Source of the DNA: Pontiella desulfatans
GTDB taxonomy: Bacteria; Verrucomicrobiota; Kiritimatiellia; Kiritimatiellales; Pontiellaceae
Length of the DNA: 64,000 nt
Direction: 5' to 3'
NCBI RefSeq assembly: GCF_900890425.1
Contig: NZ_CAAHFG010000001.1
Coordinates: forward strand, 2,728,001-2,792,000
Below the pieces are notes generated by a model. It did no database searches and was not told the DNA's origin. It saw only the letters and a program-made list of their open reading frames with translations. Of this stretch, positions 472-20,424 are shown one piece after another (positions within the stretch are counted from its first letter, which is position 1; every line of letters starts with the position of its first letter). Made by a program: the position numbers and the translations under genes.

Positions 472-1088
472 TAGGACTCTTCCTCTTCAAAATCGGTGTT
501 GCCTGCTTCAGACGGGAAGACGCATCCGCTATCCATGCTTTTCGCAAGCAGCAGATGAATCCGCATGATTTCTTTTACAAGAGCTGGAAGTTCGATTTGC
601 TTGCCCAGAATCTCAAGGGCTCTTTTGTCCACGTAGTAGGCACGGAAAAAGAGCATGGGGGCACCATGATTCGGCGGTTTCGGGCCGACATAGCTAGGGA
701 AGAAGTTCCCTGCAATGTGCCCTTTTATATACTCATCAATTTTTTCATCAAAGTGCTCGGCTTGGTTTCTTACATCTCGTGATTTTAAAGGGCTTGTTTC
801 ATCAACGCTAAAAACCCTTCTCAACTCCACGCCACGGCCTTCATATTTTTTTGACGGCCAAAAGTATCTGGAAAGCGCACCAGCTTGATGCACGATGTTT
901 TGAACATGATTCAGAACCTCATATTGGTCGATCTTCCACATTCCGCTTTCCATCCGATTGTGGAAATCATCAATCCATCCCGCTGAGATCAGTGCTGCTT
1001 CTGTTCGAGCAAGCATGCTCTCGATATAGAAAAACTGGTATGGCGGCCATATGGAGAAATCATCTTTCTGTTTCATGACGGCATCCAA
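471..1088 (-). CDS. Hypothetical protein in type I RM locus
   Basis: A 205-residue protein of no family I recognise. It is rich in aromatic and charged residues (an N-terminal IWPPYQFFYIESML stretch, an acidic FEEEES tail) and has no signal peptide or membrane segment. The start at 1088 lies inside the end of the patatin-like gene (16-bp overlap), and its stop overlaps the hsdS start. The tight coupling means it is expressed with the phospholipase and HsdS genes. It could be a partner or immunity protein of the patatin/metallohydrolase pair, but nothing in the sequence shows this. Confidence 0.65.
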   Translation of the reverse strand: MDAVMKQKDDFSIWPPYQFFYIESMLARTEAALISAGWIDDFHNRMESGMWKIDQYEVLNHVQNIVHQAGALSRYFWPSKKYEGRGVELRRVFSVDETSPLKSRDVRNQAEHFDEKIDEYIKGHIAGNFFPSYVGPKPPNHGAPMLFFRAYYVDKRALEILGKQIELPALVKEIMRIHLLLAKSMDSGCVFPSEAGNTDFEEEES

Positions 1089-2212
1089 GAGTAGCTGTTC
1101 TGATTGTATTCAATAAATGGGCTCCGATTGATCCCGTATAGTACGGCACTGCAAACCTCGTAACCATGCTGGAACACCGATCGAAACTCCGTCGGCTTGA
1201 GCTTGCGGAGCGTAGTGGCGAATTCTGACACAGTTTTTATTTCAGTTGGCGTCATGTAACGGGCTTTTGGTATTTCTGCATTCAGGTTTTTGCAGATCTG
1301 CTCGACTGACTCTCCCATGCGAAGATATCCACCGTTGTTATTGTTACGGAAAAATCCGAATAGTTCACGAGCCCGCAGGCTGCGCACCTGATCCATTGGG
1401 ATATTAACCAGCCGCATGGGCTGGCGAGGTAGGACAATGTTTTTAAGCCATTTTCGATAAACGAAATCCAAAGGTTTTGATGCATCACAAACAAGTGCAA
1501 AATCTAAATCATACCGAAGGCCCTTTTTCGTTTTATAGATAGCCTCCACTCCAAGATTATCATACACCCCGCCATCCCATAGGGTCAGGGATTTTGCGAT
1601 TGGATTTACATCTATGTCTGGAGCTGAACTTTGATCCCAGCCTGCATACTTCTTCCATGCAAATTCAGCAGTTTTAATTTTCAAGGGACCAATCAATCCC
1701 GGTACGGCTGCCGAAGCAGCTACGGCATCCGATAATGGGAATTTTGGATCTACTACATAGTTCGCAATATAATCTCCCATACGCCTCTTATGAAACCGCC
1801 AGTTTTTTCCAGTCTCATAACATGTGGCGTTGATCGTCCAGCGCGGATTGGTTTCGGGGATCTCAGAGATGCAGGAGGTAATACCCCAGCGATCTTTGAT
1901 TAGCTTCCCGATAATTTGTGCGCGGCCTTCCAGCACCTGGGGCCATGCTCTCAATAAATAAGCTCTTTGAAGGTCATAGCTGGTAAGAAACCGGGAGATT
2001 TCAGGCAAACATTTATTCAGGTAATCGTCAGCAGTCGGCCACCGTTTTCCTGCTTTTTCGAAAATCAGCGCTACGCATAGGCTTCCGCCCGAAACGGTGG
2101 AAATGTGTTCAAATGATGACCAAAACTCCGTTTCCGCCAAACGTGCAAGCACGCCCAGATGAAACACCGAAGCCCGCACACCACCTCCAGATAATGAAAG
2201 TCCTGTTTTCAT
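1073..2212 (-). CDS. Patatin-like phospholipase
   Basis: A 379-residue patatin/cPLA2-fold acyl hydrolase expected to cleave membrane phospholipids. The N-terminus carries the glycine-rich oxyanion-hole segment SLSGGGVRAS (residues 6-15). A nucleophile elbow VSGGS follows around residues 40-44, with Ser41 the likely nucleophile. DGGVYDNLG (Asp213) supplies the catalytic aspartate of the Ser-Asp dyad. There is no signal peptide, so the enzyme should be cytoplasmic. Its start overlaps the end of the metallohydrolase gene by 4 bp. Patatin-like phospholipases are known effectors in CBASS and other abortive defence systems. A defence role is inferred here from the position inside a restriction-modification locus. 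Confidence 0.85.
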   Translation of the reverse strand: MKTGLSLSGGGVRASVFHLGVLARLAETEFWSSFEHISTVSGGSLCVALIFEKAGKRWPTADDYLNKCLPEISRFLTSYDLQRAYLLRAWPQVLEGRAQIIGKLIKDRWGITSCISEIPETNPRWTINATCYETGKNWRFHKRRMGDYIANYVVDPKFPLSDAVAASAAVPGLIGPLKIKTAEFAWKKYAGWDQSSAPDIDVNPIAKSLTLWDGGVYDNLGVEAIYKTKKGLRYDLDFALVCDASKPLDFVYRKWLKNIVLPRQPMRLVNIPMDQVRSLRARELFGFFRNNNNGGYLRMGESVEQICKNLNAEIPKARYMTPTEIKTVSEFATTLRKLKPTEFRSVFQHGYEVCSAVLYGINRSPFIEYNQNSYSWMPS

Positions 2213-3099
2213 GATGCTGTCGGTGCTTGGCTATAGTTGCACTGCCCATCACCTTTAACTGTAAACTGTATGCGACCCCCCGTTTTCGTTGAAAGAAATT
2301 TCTTCTCTCCTGTAGTCCACGCAATGCCATTCGGCTTTGTGCGAAAACTATCATGAGTTGGTTCCATCCCGTATTTATCGCTTATCAGAACCATAGCAGG
2401 ATCGATTGTATCCATCATGTCTTGGCAGTATACCGATTGCCTTCCGTGGTGTGGAGCGACAAGGATTCGATATGTTGCGCCATCTATAAGAGGTTGAAAA
2501 TCAGAAGCATACTTGCTCCAGAATTCTAGCCACCCGGCCTCTTCGATATCGCCCGGAAAACAAAACAACCACCCCTTATAGGAATAGAACATGACGATGG
2601 ATGTATTGTTTTTATTCATACCCTCTCTATATGAAAGGCAACTTGCTTCAATTGTTACTCCACCATTGTAATCTGGATTGCGTGGATTCTCTGACCATTC
2701 AATTCCTCCACCATATGAACCGTCTAGCTCCTTATATTTCTTTTGATATTCATGCTGTTCGTCACCAAACTTTTCCCTGTCTGGGAGTGATTTGTTTCTC
2801 CGAAGGACTCTCGGTTTACCCAGGTGTTCGATGATTTTCGGTAGGTTGTGGAGATGATCCAAATCGGGATGACTAATGACAAGATAGTCTAGTTCAGTTT
2901 CCCCATAGTGGTGCCTTACGTGATGGGCGGGACAAAAGCCCGTTTCTGGGTACCACCCTGCATCAATCCAGTGATTGTGGCCATTGGGTGTTTGTATCCA
3001 GATTGAAAGACCATGGCCAACATCCCATAGCGTGAACATCATCTGTTTTTTCGCGGCATTTTCGCGTTCAATTTGGGTGAGGATTCTTTGGATATCCAT
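2209..3099 (-). CDS. ComEC/Rec2-type metallo-beta-lactamase-fold hydrolase
   Basis: A 296-residue cytoplasmic MBL-fold protein. WDVGHGLSIWIQTPNG followed by WIDAG (residues 25-47) matches the start of ComEC-type MBL domains. The metal-binding motif is HPDLDH (His77, Asp79, Asp81, His82). PGDIEEAG and VAPHHG provide the later metal ligands. An AAGGAGG ribosome site precedes the ATG at 3099. Stand-alone members hydrolyse phosphodiester or nucleotide substrates. Its gene overlaps the patatin gene by 4 bp, suggesting a two-protein module. The substrate is unknown; a nuclease or cyclic-nucleotide hydrolase is possible. Confidence 0.8.
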   Translation of the reverse strand: MDIQRILTQIERENAAKKQMMFTLWDVGHGLSIWIQTPNGHNHWIDAGWYPETGFCPAHHVRHHYGETELDYLVISHPDLDHLHNLPKIIEHLGKPRVLRRNKSLPDREKFGDEQHEYQKKYKELDGSYGGGIEWSENPRNPDYNGGVTIEASCLSYREGMNKNNTSIVMFYSYKGWLFCFPGDIEEAGWLEFWSKYASDFQPLIDGATYRILVAPHHGRQSVYCQDMMDTIDPAMVLISDKYGMEPTHDSFRTKPNGIAWTTGEKKFLSTKTGGRIQFTVKGDGQCNYSQAPTAS

Positions 3100-3109
3100 T
3101 GTTACCTCC

Positions 3110-3199
3110 TTAAGTATATTCGTTAATACCCAGTGCTTTGAGGTGTGTCTGCATCTCTTTATCCGGCTCCGTCAGCTCGGCGATGATTTCCTTTAGCAT
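3110..3199 (-). pseudogene. Orphan C-terminal tail of an HsdM-like methyltransferase
   Basis: A 29-codon reading frame from an ATG at 3199 ends in HLKALGINEYT. The intact HsdM encoded just upstream ends in HLKALGIGE, and the residues before it also correspond (LKEI..ELTE against LKEL..IDTE). The frame starts as a tail overlapping the 3' end of the DUF2188 gene. It looks like the remnant of a second hsdM 3' end left by a partial duplication. A functional peptide cannot be excluded, because the metallohydrolase ribosome site begins at its stop. Confidence 0.5.
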
Positions 3200-3204
3200 C
3201 GTCT

Positions 3205-3438
3205 CTATTTCCGATCCTTCGGCGGGCACGGATCATTTCCATAACTGTTTCCAGCTCGGATGCGTCCATCGGTTCCGTGAATCTTGGTATCGGAATGCTG
3301 GTTGCGGGCAATATCTTGAGCGATGTTGATCGCCTGTGCCTGCGTTTTAGTCACGGCGGTTGCTTTGCTGTTTCCAGCACCCTTAACCGCCCATCCATCC
3401 GAGTGCTTTACTACGTGTTGGTTTTTGCCGCGTGCCAT
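3205..3438 (-). CDS. DUF2188 protein
   Basis: A 77-residue small basic protein of the DUF2188 family. Diagnostic pieces are HVVKHSDGWAVKGAGNSKAT at the N-terminus, TQAQAINIAQ in the middle and IHGTDGRIRAGNSYGNDP near the end. The family is common near restriction-modification and other accessory loci, and its biochemical role is not established. The gene follows hsdM with a 23-bp gap and the same orientation, so it is probably cotranscribed with hsdM. Confidence 0.85.
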   Translation of the reverse strand: MARGKNQHVVKHSDGWAVKGAGNSKATAVTKTQAQAINIAQDIARNQHSDTKIHGTDGRIRAGNSYGNDPCPPKDRK

Positions 3439-3461
3439 GGTGTTGCTCCTTATCTTGTTGG

Positions 3462-4979
3462 TTATTCCCCGATCCCCAGCGCCTTCAGGTGCTCGGCCAT
3501 TTCGGCTTCGACCTTCACGAGTTCAGTATCGATTTCCTTCAATTCCTTGAGGTTGGCCTCGATGTCGATCTCCTCCTCTTCCTCGAAGGTGTCGACATAG
3601 CGGGTGATATTGAGATTGTGGTCGTTTTCGGCGATCTCGCCGGGCAGGACGGGACGGCAGAACTTTTCGATCGGCTTGCGCTTTTCGACGGCGTCGATGA
3701 TTTTCTGGATATGCTTCTCTTCCATAAAGTTCATGGCCTTGCCGGGCTTGAACTCTTTGGAGGCCTCAACAAAAAAGACGTCCTTGCGGTCGGCGTTGGC
3801 ACCGCCTTCTTCGCGGGATCGGTCGAGGATAAGGATGGCGACGGGGATGCCCGTGGTTTGGAACAGCCCGGCAGGCAGGCCAATGACGGTATCGACGATA
3901 TTTTGCTCCAGCAGGCTTTTGCGAATCCGGCCTTCGGCCGCGCCGCGGAACAGTACGCCGTGCGGGACAATGACGGCGACGCGCCCTTCCCCGGCCTTGG
4001 CGGTTTCGACCATGTGGGTGACGAAGGCATAGTCGCCCTTGGTCTTGGGCGGCAGGCCGCGCCAGAAGCGGTTGTAGGGATCGTTCTCGATGTTTTCGCC
4101 CATCCATTTTTTAAGGGAGAACGGCGGGTTGGCGACGACGAGGTCGAACTTCATGAGGGCGTCGTCTTCCTTGAGCAGCGGATTGTTGAGGGTGTCGCCC
4201 TGTTTGATGGTGGCGGAATCCTTGCCGTGCAGGAACATGTTCATGCGGGCGAGGTTGTAGGTGCCCATATTGCTTTCCTGGCCGTAGAGGGCGTAGTCGT
4301 TCGAGCCCTGCTTCTCGATCTCAGCCCCTGCCAGCAGCAGCAGACCGCCCGCCCCGCAGGCAGGATCGCAGATGCGCCAGCCGGGTTGCGGCCTGGCCAG
4401 CCGCGCCAGCAGCTCGGCGACGGAATGGACGGTGAAGAATTCGCCAGCTTTTTTTCCGGCATCGGAACCGAAGCGCTCGACCATATACATATAGGCATTG
4501 CCGATCACGTCGTCGCCCGCCTCGGTGAGGTCGATCCTTGAAAAGTCGTCCATGAGGTCGCGCAGCATTTTGTTGCGCTGCTCGGTATTGCCGAGCACGG
4601 CCTCGGAGTTGAAGTCGACGGTGATGATGCCGCCGAGCCGCTCACTGTTTTCGTCTTCGATCCGATGCAGCGCCTTGTTGAGCAGTTCGCCGAGGTTGTC
4701 TTCCTCGCGCTTGAGGTAGAGCTCGTGGAAGCTGGCGCCCTCGGGAATGATGAAGCGTTCGCTTTTCAGGCGCAGGGCAATACGGTCTTTGTCGTCGCCA
4801 TAGCGCGCCTTGAGTTTTTCCAGCGTGTGCTGATGCAGGTCGGAGATATATTTGAAGAAGAGGAAGAGCAGGACATAGTCCTTGTAGACCCCGCCATCGA
4901 CGTTGCCGCGCGAGGAGTCGGCCGCGTTCCACAGCGTTTTGTTCAGCTCGTCCTGGGTGTATTTTTTTGCGCCTGTCAT
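3462..4979 (-). CDS. hsdM: Type I restriction-modification DNA methyltransferase HsdM
   Basis: A 505-residue N6-adenine methyltransferase subunit, normal in length for HsdM. The N-terminal helical domain (about residues 8-150) is followed by the SAM-binding motif DPACGAGG (205-212) and the catalytic NPPF motif (284-287). The C-terminus is a charged helix ending HLKALGIGE, which contacts HsdS. With HsdS it methylates adenines in an asymmetric bipartite site and protects host DNA. It lies 19 bp downstream of a half-size HsdS gene. The sequence shows no frameshift or missing motif, so it should be active. Confidence 0.95.
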   Translation of the reverse strand: MTGAKKYTQDELNKTLWNAADSSRGNVDGGVYKDYVLLFLFFKYISDLHQHTLEKLKARYGDDKDRIALRLKSERFIIPEGASFHELYLKREEDNLGELLNKALHRIEDENSERLGGIITVDFNSEAVLGNTEQRNKMLRDLMDDFSRIDLTEAGDDVIGNAYMYMVERFGSDAGKKAGEFFTVHSVAELLARLARPQPGWRICDPACGAGGLLLLAGAEIEKQGSNDYALYGQESNMGTYNLARMNMFLHGKDSATIKQGDTLNNPLLKEDDALMKFDLVVANPPFSLKKWMGENIENDPYNRFWRGLPPKTKGDYAFVTHMVETAKAGEGRVAVIVPHGVLFRGAAEGRIRKSLLEQNIVDTVIGLPAGLFQTTGIPVAILILDRSREEGGANADRKDVFFVEASKEFKPGKAMNFMEEKHIQKIIDAVEKRKPIEKFCRPVLPGEIAENDHNLNITRYVDTFEEEEEIDIEANLKELKEIDTELVKVEAEMAEHLKALGIGE

Positions 4980-4998
4980 GGTTGGCTCTCCGTTTAAA

Positions 4999-5592
4999 CT
5001 ATTGAATGGTTGAAAGTCTCGCCTTGGCTGAAGCTTCGGCAGTCAAGTGGTGGTTAATGAGTCCGTCCAGCAGCTCCAGCTTGCGGGCGGTGAGCCGGGC
5101 ATAGTCCCGGCGGCTCTGTTCGAGGTCGATCAGCTCCTGCTGCGTTCCAAGGTCTGGAACCGGGAGAATGAAATGCTCCATCGTATTGCGGCTGACATAG
5201 GGAATGGAGGATTGCTCGATCAGACGGTTAAAGCCCAGCCTGCCCTGCGCGGAGTTGAAGTAGAGTGACAGATAGGCCGGCAAAACCGCCTTACCGGGCT
5301 TAACCCTGACCACCAGCAACGAGCCGGAAGCGACACACCCGCCTTCGCATTGCCCGGAAAACACCGCCGACGCAAAACGACCGCGCGTGGAAACCAGCAC
5401 ATCGCCTGCTTTTAGAAGGTGCTCTTTCTTGAGGCCGGAAACGACAACCCGTAAAATTCGGGCATCCAGAATACGACCGTCATCCGACAGATCACGCGGT
5501 TGTATGACGCATACGTTACCATCAGGATCATGGATGATTTTAGACCTAAAGGCATAACCTGCTCGTATTTCAGCTATATCGCAAATACTCAT
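4999..5592 (-). CDS. Half-size HsdS-like specificity protein
   Basis: The frame is open from 5676, but I place the start at the ATG at 5592 (MSICDIAEIRAGYAF). A promoter at 5603-5630 would start transcription only a few bases upstream of it, leaving a leaderless or near-leaderless mRNA. The 197-residue product has one target-recognition domain (IAEIRAGYAFRSKI, then LKAGDVLVSTRGRF) and one C-terminal helix (LDLEQSRRDYARL-type). Normal HsdS has two of each, at about 400 residues. Half-subunits can dimerise to recognise palindromic bipartite sites. A fuller-looking HsdS is encoded at the left edge, so the locus holds two specificity proteins. Confidence 0.75.
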   Translation of the reverse strand: MSICDIAEIRAGYAFRSKIIHDPDGNVCVIQPRDLSDDGRILDARILRVVVSGLKKEHLLKAGDVLVSTRGRFASAVFSGQCEGGCVASGSLLVVRVKPGKAVLPAYLSLYFNSAQGRLGFNRLIEQSSIPYVSRNTMEHFILPVPDLGTQQELIDLEQSRRDYARLTARKLELLDGLINHHLTAEASAKARLSTIQ

Positions 5593-5602
5593 AACAGTTC
5601 GC

Positions 5603-5630
5603 AATATAGTCATACTGCGCATTCTGTCAA
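5603..5630 (-). promoter_or_regulatory. Sigma-70-type promoter for the type I RM operon
   Basis: On the minus strand a perfect -35 box TTGACA (5630-5625) is followed after 16 bp by TATATT (5608-5603). Transcription would begin near 5597, about five bases before the ATG at 5592. Confidence 0.55.
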
Positions 5631-5715
5631 GCCTCTCGCAATAAACAAATATTGCACAGTTGACGCAGGTATACATTTTTCTCTACAGTTTGGTGCAACA
5701 AAGGAGACCGATGTT

Positions 5716-7204: not shown

Positions 7205-7504
7205 ATGAAAAGCAGCACCAAGCAGATGATCACCGTTGCATTAGCGGCCGACGAAACCATCGACAGCACATCGCGAAAACAACTGGCACAAGCCTTGGCC
7301 GGCAAGCAAAGAGCCGGCAAACAAATCGGCACCAAGGAGGCGGCTGCCATCCTTGGCATACACCCCATTAGCCTGAGAAGACTTGAAAAGAGAGGTGCCA
7401 TTTCAGCGGTACGGCTTAGCAAACGGCGTATCCGCTGGTTTCTCGAAGATGTCACCCGTCTTCGCGACCAAGGAGTGGAAATCGACCGGGGGGTGGAAAA
7501 ATGA
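7205..7504 (+). CDS. MerR/excisionase-type helix-turn-helix protein
   Basis: A 99-residue DNA-binding protein. Residues about 40-85 form an excisionase-like winged helix-turn-helix: GTKEAAAILGIHPISLRRL followed by the wing with RLSKRRIRWF. It could act as a recombination directionality factor or a transcription regulator of the mobile region. No partner integrase is encoded nearby. The ATG follows a GGAGGA site held in a hairpin. The stop overlaps the start of the next gene by 4 bp (ATGA), so the two are translationally coupled. Confidence 0.75.
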   Translation: MKSSTKQMITVALAADETIDSTSRKQLAQALAGKQRAGKQIGTKEAAAILGIHPISLRRLEKRGAISAVRLSKRRIRWFLEDVTRLRDQGVEIDRGVEK

Positions 7505-8136
7505 ACGCGCCGCCAACTACAATCTGCATCGATCACAACAGCGTGCATTTCACCCGAGCGAGATTCCTGATGGAAACTAGGTCTTGCGACCCAAACAGAG
7601 CCATTCTTAATCTGCTATGCGTTGAACGGCGGGCGCGGGGTATCTCGATCACGGCAACAAATGGACAATTCCTGCGCTCGGACAACTTCAACATACGCGC
7701 CGAGCCGGGGGTTTATTGCGTTGCGAGTAACACGGTCGACCAGATCGGCCTAATTCGGGTCTATGAAACTGCTGCATACCCCAATTATCGCCATGCGATC
7801 CCAAGGCTCAACTCATCAAATTCCCACGTTCTGGAAGGCCACGGTCTTAATTTTGTTGTCTGGGCCGCAGCGGCCCTAGGCACATATATCTCCCCGACAT
7901 TGATCCATATTGGCGAGAATGAACCCTTTAAACTCCACATTCATAAGAAGGATTACCTTGGAGTCGTCCTGAAGAACAGGAATACGACGGCAGTCATCAT
8001 GCCGGTCACCAGCAAGGAAAAATGGACAGATTTAGTTACCAACATCCAGCGAGGCGTACACCTCAAGGCCCTATTGGGCGAACAAACAGCTTCCCTGAAA
8101 CTAATTCACAACAACCAAACTGGAGCCGCAAAATGA
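7501..8136 (+). CDS. Sliding-clamp (DnaN)-like protein, copy 1
   Basis: A 211-residue protein homologous to the one encoded at 15879-16490. Shared landmarks are GISITATNGQFLRSDNFN against GITITATDGRRMRSDRFN, then AEPGVY/AEPGLY, YPNYRHAIP/FPSYRQVIP, and a closing hydrophobic VIMP/VVMP. The ATDGRRM-type motif preceded by a VLxxVL-like segment resembles a domain of the DNA polymerase III beta clamp. The protein is about half to two thirds the length of DnaN. A role in element replication or clamp mimicry is inferred. It sits directly upstream of the initiator-like gene. Confidence 0.6.
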   Translation: MNAPPTTICIDHNSVHFTRARFLMETRSCDPNRAILNLLCVERRARGISITATNGQFLRSDNFNIRAEPGVYCVASNTVDQIGLIRVYETAAYPNYRHAIPRLNSSNSHVLEGHGLNFVVWAAAALGTYISPTLIHIGENEPFKLHIHKKDYLGVVLKNRNTTAVIMPVTSKEKWTDLVTNIQRGVHLKALLGEQTASLKLIHNNQTGAAK

Positions 8137-8273
8137 CCACAAAAAAAACCGCGCTGGCAGGCGCGGAATCCAATACTCAACACAAAGAAGAACATATCAT
8201 GAACAATACTACCCTGCAAGCGTTCGATACGGCAACGGGGCTTCTGATGCGGCATTCTGGAGGCGCACTATGA
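8133..8273 (+). CDS. Small ORF between clamp-like and initiator-like genes
   Basis: A 46-codon frame overlaps the clamp gene stop by 4 bp (ATGA) and the initiator gene start by 4 bp. A second possible start at 8200 (MNNTTLQAFDTATGLLMRH, 24 residues) follows a CCGCGC/GCGCGG hairpin at 8149-8166 by 34 bases. That is the spacing seen for other genes in this region, so the shorter peptide may be the real product. No family is recognised. Confidence 0.45.
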   Translation: MTTKKTALAGAESNTQHKEEHIMNNTTLQAFDTATGLLMRHSGGAL

Positions 8274-10090
8274 ATCCGGGACATGAACAGCTGCCGGTTT
8301 TGGTTCGGCAAATCACCGAGTTAAGGATTACCGGGAACATGATCCCTAACACATGGACAAAATTCATTGTTCATGGCAAGAAGAAGGAGCCCGACTTCCT
8401 CGCTATGCACATCCTGAGCGACACCGTCTATTGGTATCGTGCCTCGGTCAAGAAGGACGAAGAAACCGGGCTCGTAATCCACGTCAAAAAAAGGTTCACA
8501 GCAGACAAGCTGCAGCGAAGCTATGCGCAGCTGGCGGAACTGTTCAGCATGTCGAAAGCACGGGTCAAGCAATCTATTGACCTGTTGATTGATCAGGGTC
8601 TCATCGAGCGTGAATTCAGGAACATAACTCCGGAGATGGGCTCCCCGCTAAACAACGTCATGTTCCTGGCTCCCGTACCGGACAAGATCCGGGAAATCAG
8701 CTTCCCCAGAGTCGACAAGCGGCCAAGGAAGCCAGCAAAAAGCTACAACGTATCGAAAAAAAACAAGGTGGCCCCCTCTCCGGAAACCAAAGCACCCCCC
8801 TCCCCTGATAAATCGATAGCCCCCTCCCCCAAAACTTTTGGGGGACGTATACAAGAGACTACAACGGAGATTACAACGGAGGTTACAACAGAGAAAAATC
8901 CCTTATATTCCCTTGCCGGGGGCAAGGGAACTTCTCCTTCTTTTTTTTCTTCTGAAATACCATACCCGTCGATCCCGGAGAACGCGGCATCTACGGAAGC
9001 AGTTCCGACGGGAGGTGCTCCAACTACTGAGCCCCAATCTCCCGGAGAGACCCTTTCCCCGGAACCTGTGCCAGACGAAGATGAGGAGGAGGGCTGGGAT
9101 CCTCCCTTTGACCTGCAGTGGATAAGCAACTGCTCCCCGGAAGAACTGGATGCTGAAAGGGTGAAAATTACCGCGCTCAAAAGGCGTCTCCGGGAACAGC
9201 AGGCAGAGAGGCTCATGCAAACCAGATTATACCCGTTGATATGCGCCATCTTTTATCGCAACGTTGCCCCTGAAGAAATGATCCCCATGCTGTCCCCCTT
9301 GCGAACCGGCACCATTTCCGCAAACAACCTGCTGTTTGCCGCGGCTTACTCCCTCTTGTCCCAGTGCGTTAATTTCTCCAACATCCCGGATCTCGTCCGT
9401 GCATTGAAGGAAAAAGACGACGATCAATATCTTGCTAGGTGCCGGGATGATATCACGGAAAGTCTTGCGCTTGAGCAAGAGATATTTCACCGCGAATATC
9501 CTGATGCAGATCTAGAAGAAGCCCTTGAATCTCTGAGAGAAACATACGGCTCTGTGATCATCGACTTCGGATACGATCGCGGCGCGGCTCAGAAACTCAA
9601 AGACAAGTGCGATCGCGTTATGACTAAGCAGACCGAGTACTGGAATTCGATATGCAGCAACCTTAATGTATATCAAGGCTTAGGATGCACCTTGAATCAT
9701 CTTTGGGAACATGCCGACGCCACGGCTTACCAATCATGGGACGCCATCAAACTCGCTGCACTGTTCAAGCTGGATCTTATTCAGCCAGAAGCAGCCATCA
9801 ACGATCAACGAGTCGAAGACGCTTGCCGGAAGGCAAGCGAGTACAGGTTCGTCCGGGATCTATTCTCGCAGGCAGAATCAGGGCACCCCGCCCTGAAGCA
9901 AATTCTCGATTCCAGCGAAACCCTGCCCAGCGAGAGCCAGACCCCAGAATGTAAAGTCGACGACACGACGGACACGGTCCTCGCGATGGCCGAGAAAGGG
10001 CTTGGGGACGATATAGCCCTCCCCAATGTAACAAACAACGAGGCGGTCACACTCACAACAAAGAACCACAAACGAAAGGAACTAAAATGA
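8270..10090 (+). CDS. Replication initiator-like protein with internal iterons
   Basis: A 606-residue protein. Residues about 75-115 form a helix-turn-helix (LQRSYAQLAELFSMSKARVK, then LIDQGLIERE). This N-terminal layout is shared with phage and plasmid replication or replisome-organiser proteins. A low-complexity linker (about residues 165-210) has PSP repeats and then TTEITTEVTTE, whose DNA is a run of 12-bp direct repeats. The C-terminal 350 residues are helical and unassigned. ATGA overlaps couple it to the genes on both sides. With the adjacent clamp-like protein it is the best candidate for element replication. The initiator call is inferred from architecture. Confidence 0.55.
   Translation: MNPGHEQLPVLVRQITELRITGNMIPNTWTKFIVHGKKKEPDFLAMHILSDTVYWYRASVKKDEETGLVIHVKKRFTADKLQRSYAQLAELFSMSKARVKQSIDLLIDQGLIEREFRNITPEMGSPLNNVMFLAPVPDKIREISFPRVDKRPRKPAKSYNVSKKNKVAPSPETKAPPSPDKSIAPSPKTFGGRIQETTTEITTEVTTEKNPLYSLAGGKGTSPSFFSSEIPYPSIPENAASTEAVPTGGAPTTEPQSPGETLSPEPVPDEDEEEGWDPPFDLQWISNCSPEELDAERVKITALKRRLREQQAERLMQTRLYPLICAIFYRNVAPEEMIPMLSPLRTGTISANNLLFAAAYSLLSQCVNFSNIPDLVRALKEKDDDQYLARCRDDITESLALEQEIFHREYPDADLEEALESLRETYGSVIIDFGYDRGAAQKLKDKCDRVMTKQTEYWNSICSNLNVYQGLGCTLNHLWEHADATAYQSWDAIKLAALFKLDLIQPEAAINDQRVEDACRKASEYRFVRDLFSQAESGHPALKQILDSSETLPSESQTPECKVDDTTDTVLAMAEKGLGDDIALPNVTNNEAVTLTTKNHKRKELK
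8846..8893 (+). repeat. 12-bp iterons inside the initiator-like gene
   Basis: Three direct 12-bp units (ACTACAACGGAG 8858-8869, ATTACAACGGAG 8870-8881, GTTACAACAGAG 8882-8893) are preceded by a degenerate unit (8846-8857). On the left are C-rich runs (8768-8830), and on the right an A/T-rich stretch (8893-8960). The arrangement resembles an origin embedded in an initiator gene, as in lambda O. Confidence 0.6.
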
Positions 10091-11250
10091 AATATAAACT
10101 GACAGAAGAAACTAGAGAGATTAACGGCATCACGTTATACCGCATCGAGGCGACATCCTCTTTCGGTGACGTAAAGGAAGGCGACCTGGGCGGATGGGTC
10201 GAGAATTCTAAAAACCTGTCCAAGAGAAGGCGGGCATGGATCGCCGACGAAGCCGCCGTGTACGGAGAGGCAAGGGTCGGAGGAGATGCCTGGATCGGAG
10301 GGAACGCCGAAGTATACGAACGAGCCTCAATTGGTGCGCGCGCTAAGGTTTTCGGTAATGCTAAGATTTATGGAAATGCCTGCGTCGTGGATGACGCCGT
10401 AGTGACTGACTATGCGAAGGTCAGCGGGTTCACTCAAGTGCTGGGCTGTGTCTGCATAATGAACCATGCATCCGTCTCAGGTGATATCCGACTCTTAGGC
10501 AGCATAAAGTTCGGAACAAACACGCAGCTCACCGGCCAGTTCGCGATCATTGAGCAGACCGGAACCGTTTTACACATCGATGGAAATGCTCCATACCTAC
10601 CGAATTTAGAGCGTATTGCGCATAATGCAGGCATGCGTGATGAAGCCCCATCTCACATCGACTTGCAATCTGCCGACGGGCCATATTGGCATGAACCGAT
10701 CAGACCTGCCCCCGAGGTTATCCACAGAGAACCACTCAGCTATGAGCGGACTATTCCCGATCTTCTGCTTAGCTCATTGAAAGAAGCATTGATGGATGTT
10801 CAGGACCCGAGAAAAAGCACTCCCCGGTTCCAACCATCCACCATCTTGAGCCTGGCGTTCATAGCGGCGTTGCGCGGAGCAAAAGAAACATCTCAAATAA
10901 ATGACTTCATACCATCTCTGAGCCTGACCGTGAAACAGTCCCATTGGCTCGGACTGCCTCCCCCTCATCACCGCACTCTGGAACGAGCTATGCCTCCCTC
11001 TTCAGCTTACAGCCGACTTCACGGGGTTATCGATATGAAATCGGTTAACCGGATACTCAGGCAATGGCTGAAAGATCATCGGTACGAACTGCCCGGCCAG
11101 ATGGCCCCCGCAACGCCGTTCATGGATGAAACGTTCAAGTCCCTGACGCACATGTTCCGGCGGGACAGAGCCTCTGCCGGCAAGGCAAAGCTCCGTGGCG
11201 GTACGCAGCCGAAGCAGGATTCACACAACCAACCAAAGGCAACGAAATGA
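10087..11250 (+). CDS. Hexapeptide beta-helix protein fused to a YbfD-type transposase-associated domain
   Basis: A 387-residue protein in two parts. Residues 1-160 match the phage/plasmid KEGDLGGWVE family of left-handed beta-helix proteins, with imperfect hexapeptide repeats such as GNAKIYGNACV. Residues about 215-340 match the H-repeat/YbfD N-terminal domain: DPRKS, ILSLAFIAALRGAKE, a HRTLERAM-like block and a RQWLKD helix. The sequence ends shortly after the point where a transposase would continue into its first catalytic Asp motif, so there is no DDE domain. The next large gene carries the same domain on a different N-terminus. The stop overlaps a 22-codon ORF. Confidence 0.65.
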   Translation: MKYKLTEETREINGITLYRIEATSSFGDVKEGDLGGWVENSKNLSKRRRAWIADEAAVYGEARVGGDAWIGGNAEVYERASIGARAKVFGNAKIYGNACVVDDAVVTDYAKVSGFTQVLGCVCIMNHASVSGDIRLLGSIKFGTNTQLTGQFAIIEQTGTVLHIDGNAPYLPNLERIAHNAGMRDEAPSHIDLQSADGPYWHEPIRPAPEVIHREPLSYERTIPDLLLSSLKEALMDVQDPRKSTPRFQPSTILSLAFIAALRGAKETSQINDFIPSLSLTVKQSHWLGLPPPHHRTLERAMPPSSAYSRLHGVIDMKSVNRILRQWLKDHRYELPGQMAPATPFMDETFKSLTHMFRRDRASAGKAKLRGGTQPKQDSHNQPKATK

Positions 11251-11315
11251 ACGAGAACAACATCGATGTCATAGCCGCACACCGGGATAACTACGCCGGG
11301 GCCCCCTACGAATAA
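11247..11315 (+). CDS. 22-residue ORF coupled by ATGA overlap
   Basis: The ATG overlaps the stop of the preceding gene (ATGA) and the frame runs 22 codons (MNENNIDVIAAHRDNYAGAP and two more). The overlap style is that of the neighbouring real genes, but a peptide this short may simply terminate coupled translation before the hairpin at 11364-11385. Confidence 0.3.
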   Translation: MNENNIDVIAAHRDNYAGAPYE

Positions 11316-11363
11316 GTGCATGGGCTCTTCGGACCACCGGAAGCATGAATACAGGCTTAATCG

Positions 11364-11385
11364 GGGCGGGCGCAATCGCCCGCCC
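11364..11385 (+). terminator. GC-rich hairpin upstream of the DUF4338 gene
   Basis: GGGCGGGCG and CGCCCGCCC pair perfectly (9 bp) around a CAAT loop. There is no T-run. It lies 25 bases before the preferred start at 11411. Confidence 0.5.
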
Positions 11386-11410
11386 TGCCTCCCCAACACA
11401 AAAGGCCGCC

Positions 11411-12439
11411 ATGAAACCAGAAAGAAAATTCATACCGGATTATGACAATATCTACGTGGTGGCAGCCCCACCGCAGAGGTTCAAAGAACTCGCAAAGGAA
11501 CACATGGATGGATGGGATGACCTCTTATTTGAACACGAGGTCGCATATGAGATGGGGCTTCTGGTTTTGACCAACAACGACTGGTTTGGGGCACTCTTAG
11601 TGCGACGGGCGGAAACCCAATCCCTTGAGCGAGATCACTGGCTTGGCTGGAGCACGTACCATCAAGTGGAACGAAGCCCCCTGGTTCTGGAAGTCCTTGA
11701 ATACCTGCCCCGCTGGGAAGCATGCTACCGTCCAGATTACGGCGTGCGTGCCTTGCAGGCAGCCATCTCACGGATGGCGGAAATGTTCGAACTGCATTAC
11801 GGCTATAAACCTTTACTGGCGGACTGCCATATGGATCCGGACGGCCGGATGCCGGACTATTTCCGCGGTGCCGGCTGGATCCTTGCAACGGAAGGGAACC
11901 CTGAAAAACTTTCAAGCTACTGGATCAATGAGTTGGTTCCCCGGGCCTCGGAAATCATGACGGCCAAAAACCTGGACAAAGCATACACGGCTGGCACCTC
12001 CCGCAAACTCACCGGACTGCTACCCATCAGCGAGCATCTTCTTCCATCGCTGAGGGATGCTTTCAAAGCCATAGACGACGATCGCGCAACGAACAAGAAA
12101 CACCCTCAGCACAGCATTTTGGCAACGATATTTCTGGCCCTGCTGTGCGGATTCCATTCTGTCAACGGCATAGTGAAATTCTCTAGGCGCCTGTCGGTGG
12201 CAAATGCCCAAATGCTCGGATTCAAAGTCGACTTAAATGGATGCGCCATTATCCCAAAATACCATACCTTCTATCGGGTACTGGGCAATTTGGATCGCCT
12301 GCAGCTATCCGAATGCTTCGTTAGGTGGGTTGAAGTCCACGAGAAGGAACTCCCGCGATCCCTGCAATTTACCGGCAGGGTCATGCGCGATGCACTCATC
12401 ACCTTCGTCAAGTATCTGGGCAGGCGCCACCCGCAGTAG
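11411..12439 (+). CDS. DUF4338 (DruA-like) protein with YbfD-type transposase-associated domain
   Basis: I prefer the ATG at 11411 because an AAAAGG site and the preceding hairpin match the local pattern; a start at 11345 is also open. The 342-residue product begins with a DUF4338-like domain (RDHWLGWST, then MFELHYGYKPLLADCHMDP and YFRGAGWILATEG), the family of Druantia DruA and some IS-linked proteins. From about residue 205 it has the YbfD N-terminal domain: LLPSLRDAFKAIDDDR, ILATIFLALLCGFHS, YHTFYRVL. It stops at ELPRSLQFTGRVMRDAL, in register with the other fusion protein, so it also lacks a DDE catalytic domain. Confidence 0.65.
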   Translation: MKPERKFIPDYDNIYVVAAPPQRFKELAKEHMDGWDDLLFEHEVAYEMGLLVLTNNDWFGALLVRRAETQSLERDHWLGWSTYHQVERSPLVLEVLEYLPRWEACYRPDYGVRALQAAISRMAEMFELHYGYKPLLADCHMDPDGRMPDYFRGAGWILATEGNPEKLSSYWINELVPRASEIMTAKNLDKAYTAGTSRKLTGLLPISEHLLPSLRDAFKAIDDDRATNKKHPQHSILATIFLALLCGFHSVNGIVKFSRRLSVANAQMLGFKVDLNGCAIIPKYHTFYRVLGNLDRLQLSECFVRWVEVHEKELPRSLQFTGRVMRDALITFVKYLGRRHPQ

Positions 12440-12885: not shown

Positions 12886-13299
12886 ATGATCACGCTAAAT
12901 TCAAGCTACAAAAAGACGGTGCCAATTGAAGGTCATGAATACTCAAGTCAGTCCTATCTGGCATCTGTATCCACGGAATTACCCGCAGGGTTAACCGAGT
13001 CAGAGCTGAAGGAAAAAATAGCCAACACCTTCCGCCTGGTCCGTGACTCGGTTGAGTCAGAGTTAGCGAAGGGCTCGACGCCTGGTGCGCTGCCGGAGCC
13101 GCAACAGCACAGTGCCCAGATGGATAGCAAGGCGAGCAACAAGCAGGTCGGCTATTTACTCGACTTAGCCAAGGCTCGTAACATTACGTTGATGCAACTC
13201 AATGCCGACGTCAAGAAGCAGTACGGCGTAGACTCCATATTTGATCTGGACCGTAAGACCTGTAGCCGCCTGATTGATGAGTATCAGCGGGCGGCCTAA
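12886..13299 (+). CDS. Mobile-element protein with C-terminal SAP-like domain
   Basis: A 137-residue soluble protein. The C-terminal half (about 85-135) reads ASNKQVGYLLDLAKARNI and then LDRKTCSRLIDEY. This is a pattern common in plasmid and phage proteins, where a small helical domain follows an ASxKQ start. The N-terminal half is unassigned. An AAGGAGG site precedes the ATG. It starts the recombination/maintenance gene block and is flanked by hairpins on both sides. Confidence 0.6.
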   Translation: MITLNSSYKKTVPIEGHEYSSQSYLASVSTELPAGLTESELKEKIANTFRLVRDSVESELAKGSTPGALPEPQQHSAQMDSKASNKQVGYLLDLAKARNITLMQLNADVKKQYGVDSIFDLDRKTCSRLIDEYQRAA

Positions 13300-13322: not shown

Positions 13323-13359
13323 GCCCCGTCGTTCCATCGTGAGCGGCGGGGCTTCTTTG
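13323..13359 (+). terminator. Hairpin before the nuclease gene
   Basis: GCCCCG (13323-13328) pairs with CGGGGC (13347-13352), followed by TTCTTTG. The nuclease start codon follows 21 bases later. Confidence 0.55.
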
Positions 13360-13380
13360 TATCTACAACAGGAGAATCAA

Positions 13381-14202
13381 ATGACATTGATGGAATTAAG
13401 AAAACGACCGCACTGGTCGTTCAGTAGTCTGAACTCATTGCTGAACATCTGCAGCTTGCAGTGGCGATTTCAGAAGATCGATAAACTCAAGCCCACGCAT
13501 ACATCGGTCAACTTGGTCGCAGGAAGTTGCCACCATCGTACACTCGACCAGGTCTACTTGGCGAGAAAGCTTGGTATGCCTATGACCATAGATGAAGCAC
13601 TGGAACTCTATACCGAAGACTGGAGACGGTCATCACAAGAGGAGCCGATCAAATACGGTAAGCTTGATGCAGATGGCGTAGAGGAACAGGGCCGTGGTTT
13701 GATCCAGGTTGCATGGGATAACATAGATCCAACGGAGACGGTATTGCAGGTCAGCGAAGTGTTCTGTGTGCCGATTATTTATGATGGTCGGTTTATGAGT
13801 AAGCCTATGGTGGGTGAATGGGATTTAATCGTAGAGAAAGACGGTCAGCCGTTGGTGATCGATTGGAAAACTTCTGCGACTAGGTGGGCGAAAACTAAGG
13901 CCGAAAAGTCATTACAGGCAACAGCGTATTCGTTGGCGTACTGGCAGAAGCATGGGATTAATCCGGATGTACGTTTTGATGTAGCGGTGAAAAATAAGAC
14001 CCCGGTGCATGAAAAGCATGTAACAAGTCGTGCCCCCGAAGACTGGGCACTGCTGGGCATGCTGGCGGCGAAGGCGGAGACCATCGTGGAACAGGAGTTA
14101 TTTTATCCGAGTCTGGATTCGTTCGCCTGTAACGACTGCCCCTTTGCCGGGGCATGTGAATCATGGTGCCACGGAGAATATTCCATCGCACAGGCCGCCT
14201 AA
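13381..14202 (+). CDS. RecB-like PD-(D/E)XK exonuclease with Cys cluster
   Basis: A 273-residue nuclease of the PDDEXK_1/RecB-Cas4 type. The catalytic core is VGEWDLIVEKDGQPLVIDWK, which contains the metal-binding Asp and the DxK motif. QATAYSLAYW follows as the conserved QxxxY helix. The C-terminus has a CNDCPFAGACESWC cluster of cysteines, likely an Fe-S site as in AddB and Cas4. It probably trims DNA ends during element replication or recombination. The start at 13381 follows a GGAGA ribosome site. Confidence 0.85.
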   Translation: MTLMELRKRPHWSFSSLNSLLNICSLQWRFQKIDKLKPTHTSVNLVAGSCHHRTLDQVYLARKLGMPMTIDEALELYTEDWRRSSQEEPIKYGKLDADGVEEQGRGLIQVAWDNIDPTETVLQVSEVFCVPIIYDGRFMSKPMVGEWDLIVEKDGQPLVIDWKTSATRWAKTKAEKSLQATAYSLAYWQKHGINPDVRFDVAVKNKTPVHEKHVTSRAPEDWALLGMLAAKAETIVEQELFYPSLDSFACNDCPFAGACESWCHGEYSIAQAA

Positions 14203-14286: not shown

Positions 14287-14724
14287 ATGAAAATGGTACT
14301 TCAATTACAGACAGAATTGGCGGTCAAAGAGGCTGCTTATGACGGAACTTTGCTGACGTCACCGGAACATGTTGAAGCGTATTTGAGTGAGCTGAAGTCG
14401 GCTGCTCAAGAAGCGTTTGTGGTTATTGCGTTGAATGCTAAGAACCGGGTGATCGAGAAACATCTGGTTTCATTGGGCACCGTATCATCGGCGCTGGTCC
14501 ATCCTCGTGAGGTGTTCCGGCCGCTCATTCAAAGCGGAGCATCGTACACCATTTTGGCGCACAACCACCCCAGTGGAAGTCCTTCTCCCTCTTGCGAAGA
14601 TCTGAAAATTACGAGACAGCTCATCGCAGCTGGCGAGATCATGGGCATCAAAGTGCTCGACCATATCGTCATCGGCGACCGGGCCGTATCGTTGCGGGAA
14701 ACCGGGCTGTGTCACTTCGGGTAG
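14287..14724 (+). CDS. radC: RadC-family JAB-domain protein
   Basis: A 145-residue version of the RadC/MPN+ domain, without the N-terminal HhH region of chromosomal RadC (about 225 residues). The metal site HNHPSGSPSPSCED is intact. Short RadC proteins are typical of plasmids and integrative elements, where their role is still unclear. ATGs at 14287 and 14293 are both possible; the second has better spacing to the GGAG site. It is followed 13 bp later by a small orphan gene. Confidence 0.88.
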   Translation: MKMVLQLQTELAVKEAAYDGTLLTSPEHVEAYLSELKSAAQEAFVVIALNAKNRVIEKHLVSLGTVSSALVHPREVFRPLIQSGASYTILAHNHPSGSPSPSCEDLKITRQLIAAGEIMGIKVLDHIVIGDRAVSLRETGLCHFG

Positions 14725-15780: not shown

Positions 15781-15820
15781 TATACGCACCGCCAAGCGCT
15801 CATAGGAAGCGCGATAAAGT

Positions 15821-15846
15821 GGCCGCCTCCAATCCGGGAGGCGGCC
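15821..15846 (+). terminator. Perfect hairpin before clamp-like copy 2
   Basis: GGCCGCCTCC (15821-15830) pairs perfectly with GGAGGCGGCC (15837-15846). There is no strong T-run. The next start codon is 33 bases away. Confidence 0.6.
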
Positions 15847-15878
15847 TGCTGTATTTACAAACCCGAAGGAGAACCACG

Positions 15879-16490
15879 ATGAACAGCATGATAGAACTCA
15901 ATAATAACAAGCATACCAAGCCGGACTTTACCGGGCTGAAGTCCGTACTCGCCTGCACCTCCAAAGACCCTACCCGGCATGTTCTCTCCAAAGTGCTTAT
16001 AGAGACGGACGGTGATGACGGCATCACCATCACCGCAACGGATGGCAGACGCATGCGCAGTGACCGGTTCAATCTGGAGGCCGAACCGGGCCTTTACGAT
16101 ATAAAGGTTAATTCCGCAAAGGCGATCTTTCTTACCCGGTGCCAGGAGGAGCTGACCTTCCCGAGCTATCGGCAGGTTATTCCCAACCACACTGACGATG
16201 CCGCCTACACCCTCAATGGCAACGGTAAACAGTTTGTGCTGCGTGCCTGCGCCGGACTGGGATGCTGGGTTGATCCTAAACTGGTGCAGCTGGGTGACGA
16301 TGAGGCCGTTACGCTCCATATCCAGAAGATCGATCCCAAGCGGTCTCCGGTGCTCGTGACGAATGAGACGACCACCCTGGTGGTCATGCCGATGATGCTT
16401 GACCACTACTGGATTCAGCAGCTTGAAGCCATTCAGCAGGAGCGGATGCTTCAGGCGATGAAGGAGAAGGAAGAAAGGATCGCGGCATAG
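15879..16490 (+). CDS. Sliding-clamp (DnaN)-like protein, copy 2
   Basis: The ATG at 15879 follows GAAGGAG; an earlier in-frame start at 15819 would overlap the hairpin. The 203-residue product has VLIETDGDDGITITATDGRR, resembling a beta-clamp domain, then AEPGLYDIK and FPSYRQVIP. It is paralogous to the protein at 7501. It is closer to real DnaN (ATDG retained, where copy 1 has ATNG) and ends in a charged helix. It may form a clamp-like ring or cap used by the element's replication. Flanked by hairpins, it appears to be a monocistronic unit. Confidence 0.62.
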   Translation: MNSMIELNNNKHTKPDFTGLKSVLACTSKDPTRHVLSKVLIETDGDDGITITATDGRRMRSDRFNLEAEPGLYDIKVNSAKAIFLTRCQEELTFPSYRQVIPNHTDDAAYTLNGNGKQFVLRACAGLGCWVDPKLVQLGDDEAVTLHIQKIDPKRSPVLVTNETTTLVVMPMMLDHYWIQQLEAIQQERMLQAMKEKEERIAA

Positions 16491-16538: not shown

Positions 16539-16568
16539 ATGCCCACACCAAACCAAAGGAGACAACCA

Positions 16569-17155
16569 ATGAGTGCTTATCAGAAGATTAATGAAATGAT
16601 TACCGCCCGATTGATCGAACGCATAGAAGCAACGGGAGAGCTGCCCTGGAAGAAGCCGTGGACATCGGTATCGCTAATGCCGAAGAACCTGGTTACGGGA
16701 AAAAACTACCGCGGTGTGAATGTGTTTTTGCTGCACATGCTCGGTTACGCCAACCCCTGCTTCCTATCGATGAAGCAAGTCAATGCGATGGGAGGCAAAG
16801 TCCGTAAAGGCGAGAAGAGTTGCCCTGTAATTTTTTGGAGATTCATTGAAGCCAAGGAAAACACTCCTGATCAAAAAGGCTATGCGATGCTCAGGTATTA
16901 CCGAGTATTTAACGTAGAGCAATGCGAGGGACTGCCAGCAAGTAAGGTCCCGGCGATTGAGATCCCCACAAGGGAGCATGAACCCTTGAAGGTAGCGGAG
17001 AGTCTAGTCGCTTCAATGCCCAACCCGCCGCGGATCAACAATGCCCGCACATTGGCCTCATACAGTCCATCGATGGATCTAGTGTCGATGCCCTGTCCAG
17101 AGTGGTTCACCAGTGGCGAAGAGTATTACGGCGCGCTGTTCCATGAACTGGCGCA
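16569..17155 (+). pseudogene. ardC: ArdC-type antirestriction protein, N-terminal part (interrupted)
   Basis: Starts at 16569 (MSAYQKINEMITARLIERIE). It has the ArdC N-terminal ssDNA-binding domain (LPWKKPW, NYRGVNVFLL, GEKSCPVIFW) and begins the metalloprotease-like domain, ending in the HELAH zinc motif at 17141-17155. There a RIT element is inserted. The frame continues only to 17231 in element DNA, giving an aberrant 221-residue product with HELAH but no C-terminal ligand. Joining 17155 to 20611 restores CAC (His) and an in-frame 297-residue ArdC. ArdC normally protects incoming plasmid DNA from type I restriction, as encoded at the left of this window. Confidence 0.92.
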
Positions 17156-17179
17156 TTATGCCGACACTGGGATTATGCC
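17150..17179 (+). repeat. Left terminal inverted repeat of RIT element
   Basis: A 30-bp sequence perfectly inverted at 20554-20583. Its first six bases are shared with the ardC target. Inside, TTATGCC occurs twice (17156 and 17173). Confidence 0.9.
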
Positions 17180-17225
17180 GTACCGAATGATTTCACCCTT
17201 GCAGTCAAAGGGTGTTCGGTACGGC
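17177..17225 (-). terminator. Long subterminal hairpin at left end of RIT element
   Basis: GCCGTACCGAA pairs with TTCGGTACGGC (11 bp) and, inside, CACCCTT pairs with AAGGGTG (7 bp). A 6-base bulge lies on one side only. It is just downstream of the ritC stop. It could end the rit transcript or act as a folded single-strand recombination site. Confidence 0.5.
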
Positions 17226-17237
17226 CATTAGGCATAA

Positions 17238-18233
17238 TTATAGGCCTTCGAGGAAGGCGAGTAGCTTGTCAGCGGGGAGATACCGCCCTGGTTTCGAGGC
17301 CGTTGCCATCACTTTTTCCAACGCCTTTTCCTTAAGGTGCAGATCGGCGTGCAGGTAGATTCTCGTTGTTTCAACGGATTCATGGCCAAGCCATAGCGAG
17401 ATAACGGTTTGATCCACCCCGTGGTGCAGCAACTCCATGGCGGTGCTGTGCCGAAGCACATGCGGACTCACCCGCTTGGTCGCCAGCGAGGGGCAGGTTT
17501 TCGAAGCCGTGAGCGTATGCTTTCGCACAAGATGTTCCAGGGCGTCTCGACTGAGTTTCCCTCCCCTGATGGTTGGAAAGAGCGGCCCGTCTTCAGTTCC
17601 GCCATACCGCCGAAGCCAGTTCTTCATGACCAAAAGGGTTTCTTTCCTGAGAGGCGTGAGGCGCTGTTTTCGACCTTTACCCATACACTGGACATGCGCA
17701 CCAGTTCCGGCAATGAGATCGCATTGGCATAGGTTGATTAGCTCCGATGCTCGAAGTCCGGTTTGCAGTGCCAGTGTCAGGATGGCATGATCGCGTTGCC
17801 CGATCCATGTGGACCGGTCCGGCGCAGACAGCAGCGCATCCATTTCCCGGCGGTCCAAAAACTCCACTGTACGTTGCTCATGGCGCTTGCTGGGCATGGA
17901 CAGTATTCGCTGGCATTGGAGCAGGTATGCCGGTTCGGTCATGGCCACGAATTTGAAGAAGGACCGGATGGCGGCCAACCGGGCATTGCGGCTGCGGGCG
18001 CAGTTGCGGCGCTTGTTCTCAACATAGGCGAGGAAGTCGCCCACCAGTTCGGTATCCAGATCTTCGACCCGGAGTTTCGTCGGCACCTTGCCGTGTTGTT
18101 CCCCGGCAAAGCGCAACAGCAGGCGGAAGGTATCCCGGTAGCTGGCGATCGTATTGGGACTTGCGTTTATCTGGATGGTGAGCCGGTCGGTGAAGAACAG
18201 TTGAACCAGAGCGGGTAGTGTCAGCGCGTTCAT
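17238..18233 (-). CDS. RIT tyrosine recombinase C
   Basis: A 331-residue site-specific recombinase. The N-terminal SAM-like core-binding domain (about 1-110) is followed by a catalytic domain with Arg161 (TGLRASELINL), HVLR (His258, Arg261), LGH (His284) and nucleophile Tyr293 (TTRIYLHAD). All catalytic residues are present. The ATG overlaps the stop of the upstream recombinase by 4 bp (ATGA). It is the third gene of the trio, and it probably works together with the other two in moving the element. Confidence 0.9.
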   Translation of the reverse strand: MNALTLPALVQLFFTDRLTIQINASPNTIASYRDTFRLLLRFAGEQHGKVPTKLRVEDLDTELVGDFLAYVENKRRNCARSRNARLAAIRSFFKFVAMTEPAYLLQCQRILSMPSKRHEQRTVEFLDRREMDALLSAPDRSTWIGQRDHAILTLALQTGLRASELINLCQCDLIAGTGAHVQCMGKGRKQRLTPLRKETLLVMKNWLRRYGGTEDGPLFPTIRGGKLSRDALEHLVRKHTLTASKTCPSLATKRVSPHVLRHSTAMELLHHGVDQTVISLWLGHESVETTRIYLHADLHLKEKALEKVMATASKPGRYLPADKLLAFLEGL

Positions 18234-19177
18234 GATTCCACCTCCCTTGCTGCGGATTCTTCCGCACGGCGGGACGCCAGTTCTAGCAGTTCAGGAGCCG
18301 CCTCGATGTACCAGTAGGTGTGTGCGGGCTTTTCATGCCCGAGGTAGGTGACGAGCTTGATCATTTCCTGGGCCGGATCCTTTCCATCCCGGTACCAGTT
18401 GAGCATCGTGCGGACGGCGAAAGTATGCCGCAGGTCATGGATGCGCGGCCCGCGCCCGTGCCGGAAAAACTTCTGAACCGGTCGCAGCCCGACACGCTGA
18501 CATACGATGGCGAAGTTGTAGCGGGCGGCGCAGGCGTCCAGCCGTTCCCCATGATCCGAGATAAAGAATGCCGAGGGTGTCGATTCGTTTAGCCGATCCC
18601 TTTCGACGGCATAGGCAACCAGCCGTTCCGCTGTATCCGTAGAGACCGGCAGCAAGCGTTCCTTGCCCAGCTTTCCTTTTCGTACGGCAACGACTCCATT
18701 CTCGAGATCGACATCGGCAACATTGAGCGAAACGGCTTCGCTGATTCTCATGCCGGTAACGGCGATGAGTCCGAAGAACGTCGAGTAGGTCAGCGGACGG
18801 ATGCCGTTGCGGGAAGGAAGCTCCGCTGCGGCTTCAACGATCATCTTGATTTCCTCTTCGCTGTAGATGTAAGGCCGGGAGCGGCGGACATGGCCGGGTA
18901 TCAGTGATTGCGGCGGCACTTCGTGGCGGGGGTCGATGCCGTGCATCCACTGGGCGAAGATTCTGACCACTGTCAGTCGTCTCGACCAGGTTTGCGTGTT
19001 TGCATGCCCGAATGCCTCCTTCCAGCGAAGGAAACAGCCGGTGCTGATGTGCGCCGCTTCTTCCTGCTCCATGAACTCGATGAACCTGCGAAGGATTCGT
19101 TCATCCGTATTCAGTTTATACCCAAGGCCTCGCCGGATGGACAGGTAGCGCTCAAGCTCTCTATTCAAGGTTTTCAT
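18230..19177 (-). CDS. RIT tyrosine recombinase B
   Basis: I choose the ATG at 19177 (MKTLNRELERYLSIRRGLGY) because an AAGGAGG site precedes it and it overlaps the first recombinase gene by ATGA; the frame is open to 19201. The 315-residue protein has Arg144 (TGMRISEAVSL), HDLR (His247, Arg250), LGH (His281) and Tyr290 in HTYWYIE. HTYWY, in place of the usual TxxYxH, fits the RIT-B type. Second gene of the trio. Confidence 0.9.
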   Translation of the reverse strand: MKTLNRELERYLSIRRGLGYKLNTDERILRRFIEFMEQEEAAHISTGCFLRWKEAFGHANTQTWSRRLTVVRIFAQWMHGIDPRHEVPPQSLIPGHVRRSRPYIYSEEEIKMIVEAAAELPSRNGIRPLTYSTFFGLIAVTGMRISEAVSLNVADVDLENGVVAVRKGKLGKERLLPVSTDTAERLVAYAVERDRLNESTPSAFFISDHGERLDACAARYNFAIVCQRVGLRPVQKFFRHGRGPRIHDLRHTFAVRTMLNWYRDGKDPAQEMIKLVTYLGHEKPAHTYWYIEAAPELLELASRRAEESAAREVES

Positions 19178-20421: not shown

Positions 20422-20424
20422 TTG

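Follow-up and report, generated by a model that had tools for sequence, protein, structure and literature searches.

A transposase-associated domain retained without its catalytic domain on two neighbouring proteins of a Pontiella desulfatans integrative element

How does a domain known from transposases come to stand, without the DDE catalytic domain, on two neighbouring proteins with different N-termini, and what might it do there? The question is raised by P1 and P2, encoded on one strand in the 64,000-nucleotide stretch of the Pontiella desulfatans genome that we analysed (the window; Table 1). The initial annotation had read the same YbfD/H-repeat domain on both, and profile searches agree: PF13808, found N-terminally in ISAs1/H-repeat transposases (DDE_Tnp_1_assoc), matched P2 with E 2.5e-14, exceeding the curated cut-off, and P1 with E 5e-6 at 26.9 bits, below the cut-off of 32.3, while a profile-profile comparison placed the P1 module with a P2/transposase profile at E 4e-14. 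In those transposases the domain is followed by a DDE domain with three acidic residues, which P1 and P2 lack.

The N-terminus of P1 is, as first read, a YdcK/phage hexapeptide beta-helix with both the N-terminal cap and the hexapeptide repeats, matched by phrog_5070 (E 9e-44) and by NF040481 (E 7e-18, below the whole-protein cut-off of that family). Phage hexapeptide beta-helix proteins (phrog_5070, phrog_7964, YdcK-like) resemble its first 150-160 residues, identities reaching ~45% among phages and viral contigs; unlike P1, none of the relatives examined there carries a PF13808 module. For P2, the proposed DUF4338 (DruA-like) domain held in part: the N-terminus aligns along its length with DruA-domain transposases, but PF14236 itself gave no match at E<=1, and the DruA homology is seen only via the transposases. 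Because residues 1-27 of P2 are unconserved and modelled with very low confidence, its true start is probably Met23, at 11411. The start of P1 overlaps the upstream replication-initiation-like gene by ATGA.

Table 1. Features of the element copy in the window and of related loci (positions in the window unless a locus is named)
Feature	Coordinates	Strand	Basis or remark
Replication-initiation-like protein	8270..10090	+	directly upstream of P1
Leader segment before P1	9931..10045	+	88% identical to that before P1b (P1 protein ~39%)
P1, 387 aa: phage-type beta-helix and PF13808 module, no DDE	10087..11250	+	open reading frame
P1 N-terminal YdcK/phage left-handed beta-helix domain	10087..10566	+	~residues 1-160
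P1 PF13808 module with shared end helix	10750..11166	+	HMM match coordinates
50-base segment	11202..11251	+	88% common with DNA before P2b and P2c
Possible 22-aa leader ORF between P1 and P2	11247..11315	+	read from sequence; overlaps P1 stop
P2, 364 aa (342 aa from 11411): DruA-like GNAT-fold domain and PF13808 module, no DDE	11345..12439	+	open reading frame
P2 GNAT-fold DruA-like domain	11432..11971	+	residues 30-209, predicted model
P2 PF13808 module with shared end helix	12017..12424	+	HMM match coordinates
P137, conserved element protein	12886..13299	+	
PD-(D/E)XK exonuclease-like protein of element	13339..14202	+	
RadC-like JAB protein of element	14287..14724	+	
Clamp-like protein of element	15819..16490	+	
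ArdC-like anti-restriction protein	16539..17231	+	interrupted; remainder in ORF 20579-20914
Free-standing DruA-like GNAT protein, 193 aa, beside P2b	L035 6525-7136	minus	
Free-standing DruA-like GNAT protein, 193 aa, beside P2c	L064 8424-9191		

A search for other proteins ending alike, suggested by the initial annotation, found a second pair, P1b and P2b, in the same genome (8.66 Mb, six contigs) at C1:1231416-1234386, 1.5 Mb away. It has the same order and the same ends, with frames intact and no stops. As to where the proteins end, the first reading was partly right. P1 and P2 do not stop at ELPGQM and ELPRSL, since they run on for 48 and 24 residues respectively (counted from the sequences, 51 residues follow the LP in P1, 32 in P1b, 27 in P2 and 57 in P2b). 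However, the homology of all four proteins to transposases gives out within one common region, ~20 residues beyond the LP. It still covers the site of the first catalytic Asp, where P1 has A, P2 has T, and both P1b and P2b have D. Each protein then has its own tail. Since the second pair has the same ends, the match is more than chance. We found no DDE sequence near either pair, in or out of frame, with profiles of both DDE halves in all frames, and an out-of-frame or downstream DDE remnant, as in frameshifted transposases, was rejected on that ground. By the same half-domain profiles, nearly all other module carriers in the class and phylum continue into DDE sequence, and the remaining DDE-less carriers are broken genes or are cut by a contig end.

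In the predicted models, which are of moderate confidence (pLDDT 69 for P1 and 76 for P2), P1 consists of a beta-helix and the same all-helical module as P2, with a C-terminal helix at residues 344-356 in P1 and 345-359 in P2. The last conserved segment of both modules is thereby modelled as a helix; in transposases the DDE fold starts at that place. A fold search with the P1 model returned no significant match, and a PDB sequence search with the module gave no sequence match (best E 0.07, regarded as chance).

Two members of one integrative-element family carry the pair as cargo, each in the same operon position. The genes downstream are alike in the two elements (P137, the PD-(D/E)XK nuclease, RadC, the clamp-like protein and ArdC), and P137 occurs without P1 or P2 in six more places of this genome, as well as in ten further genomes from the class. 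We regard the pair as cargo because P137 recurs in this way mostly with the nuclease, and often with RadC or ArdC; 18 further loci carrying the P137 gene had no P1, P2 or module. In the window, three tandem tyrosine recombinase genes (17238-20472) are inserted within the ArdC gene of the element, and the element copy has two related clamp-like proteins (7501-8136 and 15819-16490). To its left, at 1076-5676, lie type I restriction-modification genes (methyltransferase, specificity subunit), a gene for a protein of metallo-beta-lactamase fold that matches PADLOC candidate PDC-M48B, and a weak phospholipase match.

The known range of the pair is these two elements and a remnant in another species (G021), whose element is 92-94% identical in this stretch and starts with a tyrosine integrase. 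There, no P1 stands between the primase-like and DruA-like genes, and one deletion took most of the module of P2 together with P137, leaving the GNAT part of P2 (P2c). Scans that detect close relatives only found P2 in no plasmids, phages, viral contigs or genome contigs, and found P1 as the beta-helix alone in viral contigs and as two N-terminal-only matches in genome contigs.

Could the two genes simply be functionless remnants, decayed transposase genes of which one was accidentally fused? Their rarity, in a single genome, and the partly deleted G021 copy would fit. The divergence of the two pairs argues strongly the other way: P1 and P1b are 39.5% identical and P2 and P2b 41.8%, synonymous sites are saturated (pS 0.82 and 0.75), and because both pairs are nevertheless intact, independent decay is excluded, as the initial annotation had expected from the matching ends and intact frames. 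A neutral simulation at 30% substitution put stops into every simulated copy. Between the elements P137 and the nuclease are 74% and 78% identical, also with saturated synonymous sites, and amino-acid change in P1 and P2 has been 2.5-3 times faster than in these neighbours, although the genes are still kept. The dN/dS comparison proposed at the outset was measurable for one pair, P2b and P2c, and gave 0.24 (95% bootstrap 0.14-0.39; 232 codons, mainly of the GNAT part and not of the module). The GNAT part of P2 is thus under purifying selection in the related element. Together with the common ends and the common clade described below, this largely refutes the remnant reading, which we consider very improbable. 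A third gene, for a free-standing DruA-like GNAT protein (profile match E 9e-11), lies between P1b and P2b; dN/dS between the copies beside P2b and P2c is ~0.28, and the protein is absent from the window copy.

The module was therefore kept without DDE and reused, and its origin could be traced in a maximum-likelihood tree. All four DDE-less modules fall into a single clade (96/93), separate from every transposase, with P1 and P1b grouped at 99/98 and P2 and P2b at 95/85. Support was 97/94 when the ISAs1 outgroup was left out, and constraining the P1 pair to ISAs1 was weakly rejected (p-AU 0.045); long branches could help the four-module clade. DruA (PF14236)-PF13808-DDE transposases, which are ISAs1-like, are common in the class and are the rule among the nearest relatives of the module. 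They have the GNAT/DruA and PF13808 domains in the order of P2 and a module homologous to that of P1, but go on into a DDE domain, which a frameshift splits, whereas P1 and P2 end behind the first strand of that domain and P1 has a different N-terminus. The two N-termini are accordingly not equally foreign to the module, as had been supposed: to judge from the sequences, P2 is a truncated transposase of this type, which leaves P1 as the only new fusion. Homologues running on into DDE, on whose absence the first reading leaned, do exist among the relatives of P2, but were found neither for P1 nor for the second pair. Because this architecture is the rule among the nearest relatives, the simplest course would be a single loss, in which a transposase lost everything after the first DDE strand to give P2, followed by transfer of a copy of the remaining module onto a phage beta-helix gene to give P1. 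In domesticated fusions of the CSB-PGBD3 type, transposase parts are reused on another protein and most of the transposase is retained; here, by comparison, the accessory domain alone is retained, on two partners and in a bacterial element. Our literature search found no paper dealing with DruA together with ISAs1.

The DruA-type transposases themselves show a further feature. A frameshift at a homopolymer tract (C5-6T4-6, T5-7C3-5 or A7-9) divides their DDE domain at approximately the same position, downstream of the second D and upstream of the E. Of 35 scored rows with a fused DruA, a few loci contributing two rows each, 31 had the frameshift, compared with two of eight without a detected DruA, both of which are partial genes. 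The loci are L009, L014-L017, L020-L022, L027, L029-L031, L033, L043, L056, L133, L135, L137, L141, L145, L152, L158, L159, L162 and L164-L166. The pattern resembles conserved programmed frameshifting or transcriptional slippage, which the literature examined mentions for other IS families only.

What, then, does the module do on P1 and P2? We tentatively favour the idea, without holding it to be probable, that they are a domesticated pair belonging to the element's replication/recombination operon, with the module as a non-catalytic helical docking piece that would assemble P1 with P2. P1 would be a beta-helix scaffold, probably oligomeric, and P2 a GNAT-fold protein, possibly an acyltransferase or a DNA-modifying enzyme. 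Docking predicts that P1 and the module are lost jointly, and G021 fits this; it is a single case, and the one deletion also removed P137. The P1 and P2 modules are only ~24-27% identical, so a former pairing may be gone, and the narrow range of the pair and the moderate confidence of the models also weigh against docking. With somewhat less assurance still, we suggest that a transposase accessory domain freed of catalysis could have become a private assembly domain, one that links a scaffold of the phage beta-helix type with a GNAT/Mom-like enzyme.

The main rival is that the module still binds DNA, for example the operators or ends of the element, making P1 and P2 DNA-bound regulators or replication/maintenance factors; the initial annotation had likewise left room for a DNA- or protein-binding adaptor. 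The place of PF13808 in transposases, N-terminal to DDE, is a usual one for end-binding domains, and the operon adjoins a replication initiator and recombination genes. Furthermore, the two elements are 88% identical in the leaders that precede P1 and P2, compared with 76-78% for conserved genes; these leaders are more conserved than the genes downstream of them and occur nowhere else in the genome. The two leaders have no common motif of at least 8 bases, however, and the PDB sequence search gave no solved relative with DNA binding. At alignment columns 57, 63 and 69, where arginine is invariant in the nearest transposases, two to four of the DDE-less modules carry another residue, and the net charge falls from +8 to +12 in those transposases to between -7 and +5, P1b being net acidic, while the helical core positions are retained. 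The module may still be a DNA-binding adaptor, but the lost arginines speak against DNA binding in the way of the nearest transposases. They are a lead and not a proof, because other transposase subgroups also lack some of them, and a low net charge, found too in group A and ISAs1 transposases, does not exclude DNA binding. On balance we judge continued DNA binding rather unlikely. Around the leaders, a third short segment (8129-8228), just before the replication-initiation-like gene, is 88% identical to locus L035, and L035 has a 20-aa leader ORF that differs in sequence from the 22-aa ORF of the window and overlaps the start of P2b.

A different emphasis would cast P2 as a Mom-like or DruA-like GNAT-fold factor that modifies DNA or serves in defence/counter-defence, and P1 as its partner. 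Searched with the model, the GNAT domain of P2 matched many GNAT chains at Z 10-12.4, led by phage Mu Mom (12.4) in a tie with human NatF (11.7), and an alignment read by eye places PDYGV/PNYGS where the acyl-CoA-binding motif Q/RxxGxG/A is expected. The fold agrees with the description of DUF4338 as a GNAT domain, also fused to DndF defence proteins (PMC10853773). The presence of ArdC in the element and the fast amino-acid change of P1 and P2 point the same way. Against this, the GNAT fold is common and the Mom/NatF ranking is tied. P2 has the fold and a distant homology in common with Druantia DruA, but not the PF14236 score, and the DruA signature ETF..GTCYKA is not preserved. PADLOC, run on P1, P2 and part of their neighbours, matched neither protein, Druantia included, so that the defence role first suggested gained no support. 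We regard this reading as improbable.

Truncated transposases can inhibit transposition, and as transposase derivatives without a catalytic domain P1 and P2 might be dominant-negative inhibitors of DruA-type or ISAs1 transposases, shielding the element from insertions. The genome has a single PF13808 transposase, however, of a subgroup other than the nearest relatives of the module; moreover, the possible DNA-contacting residues appear lost and the beta-helix fusion would go unexplained. This makes such inhibition distinctly improbable.

In the usual course of transposase domestication, DNA cutting or DNA binding is retained. Here the accessory domain alone was retained, in one event, and then handed on to another protein. 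The pair is a small, catalysis-free system in which the role of PF13808 may be learned, and what is found there would bear on the many H-repeat/ISAs1 transposases that carry this domain.
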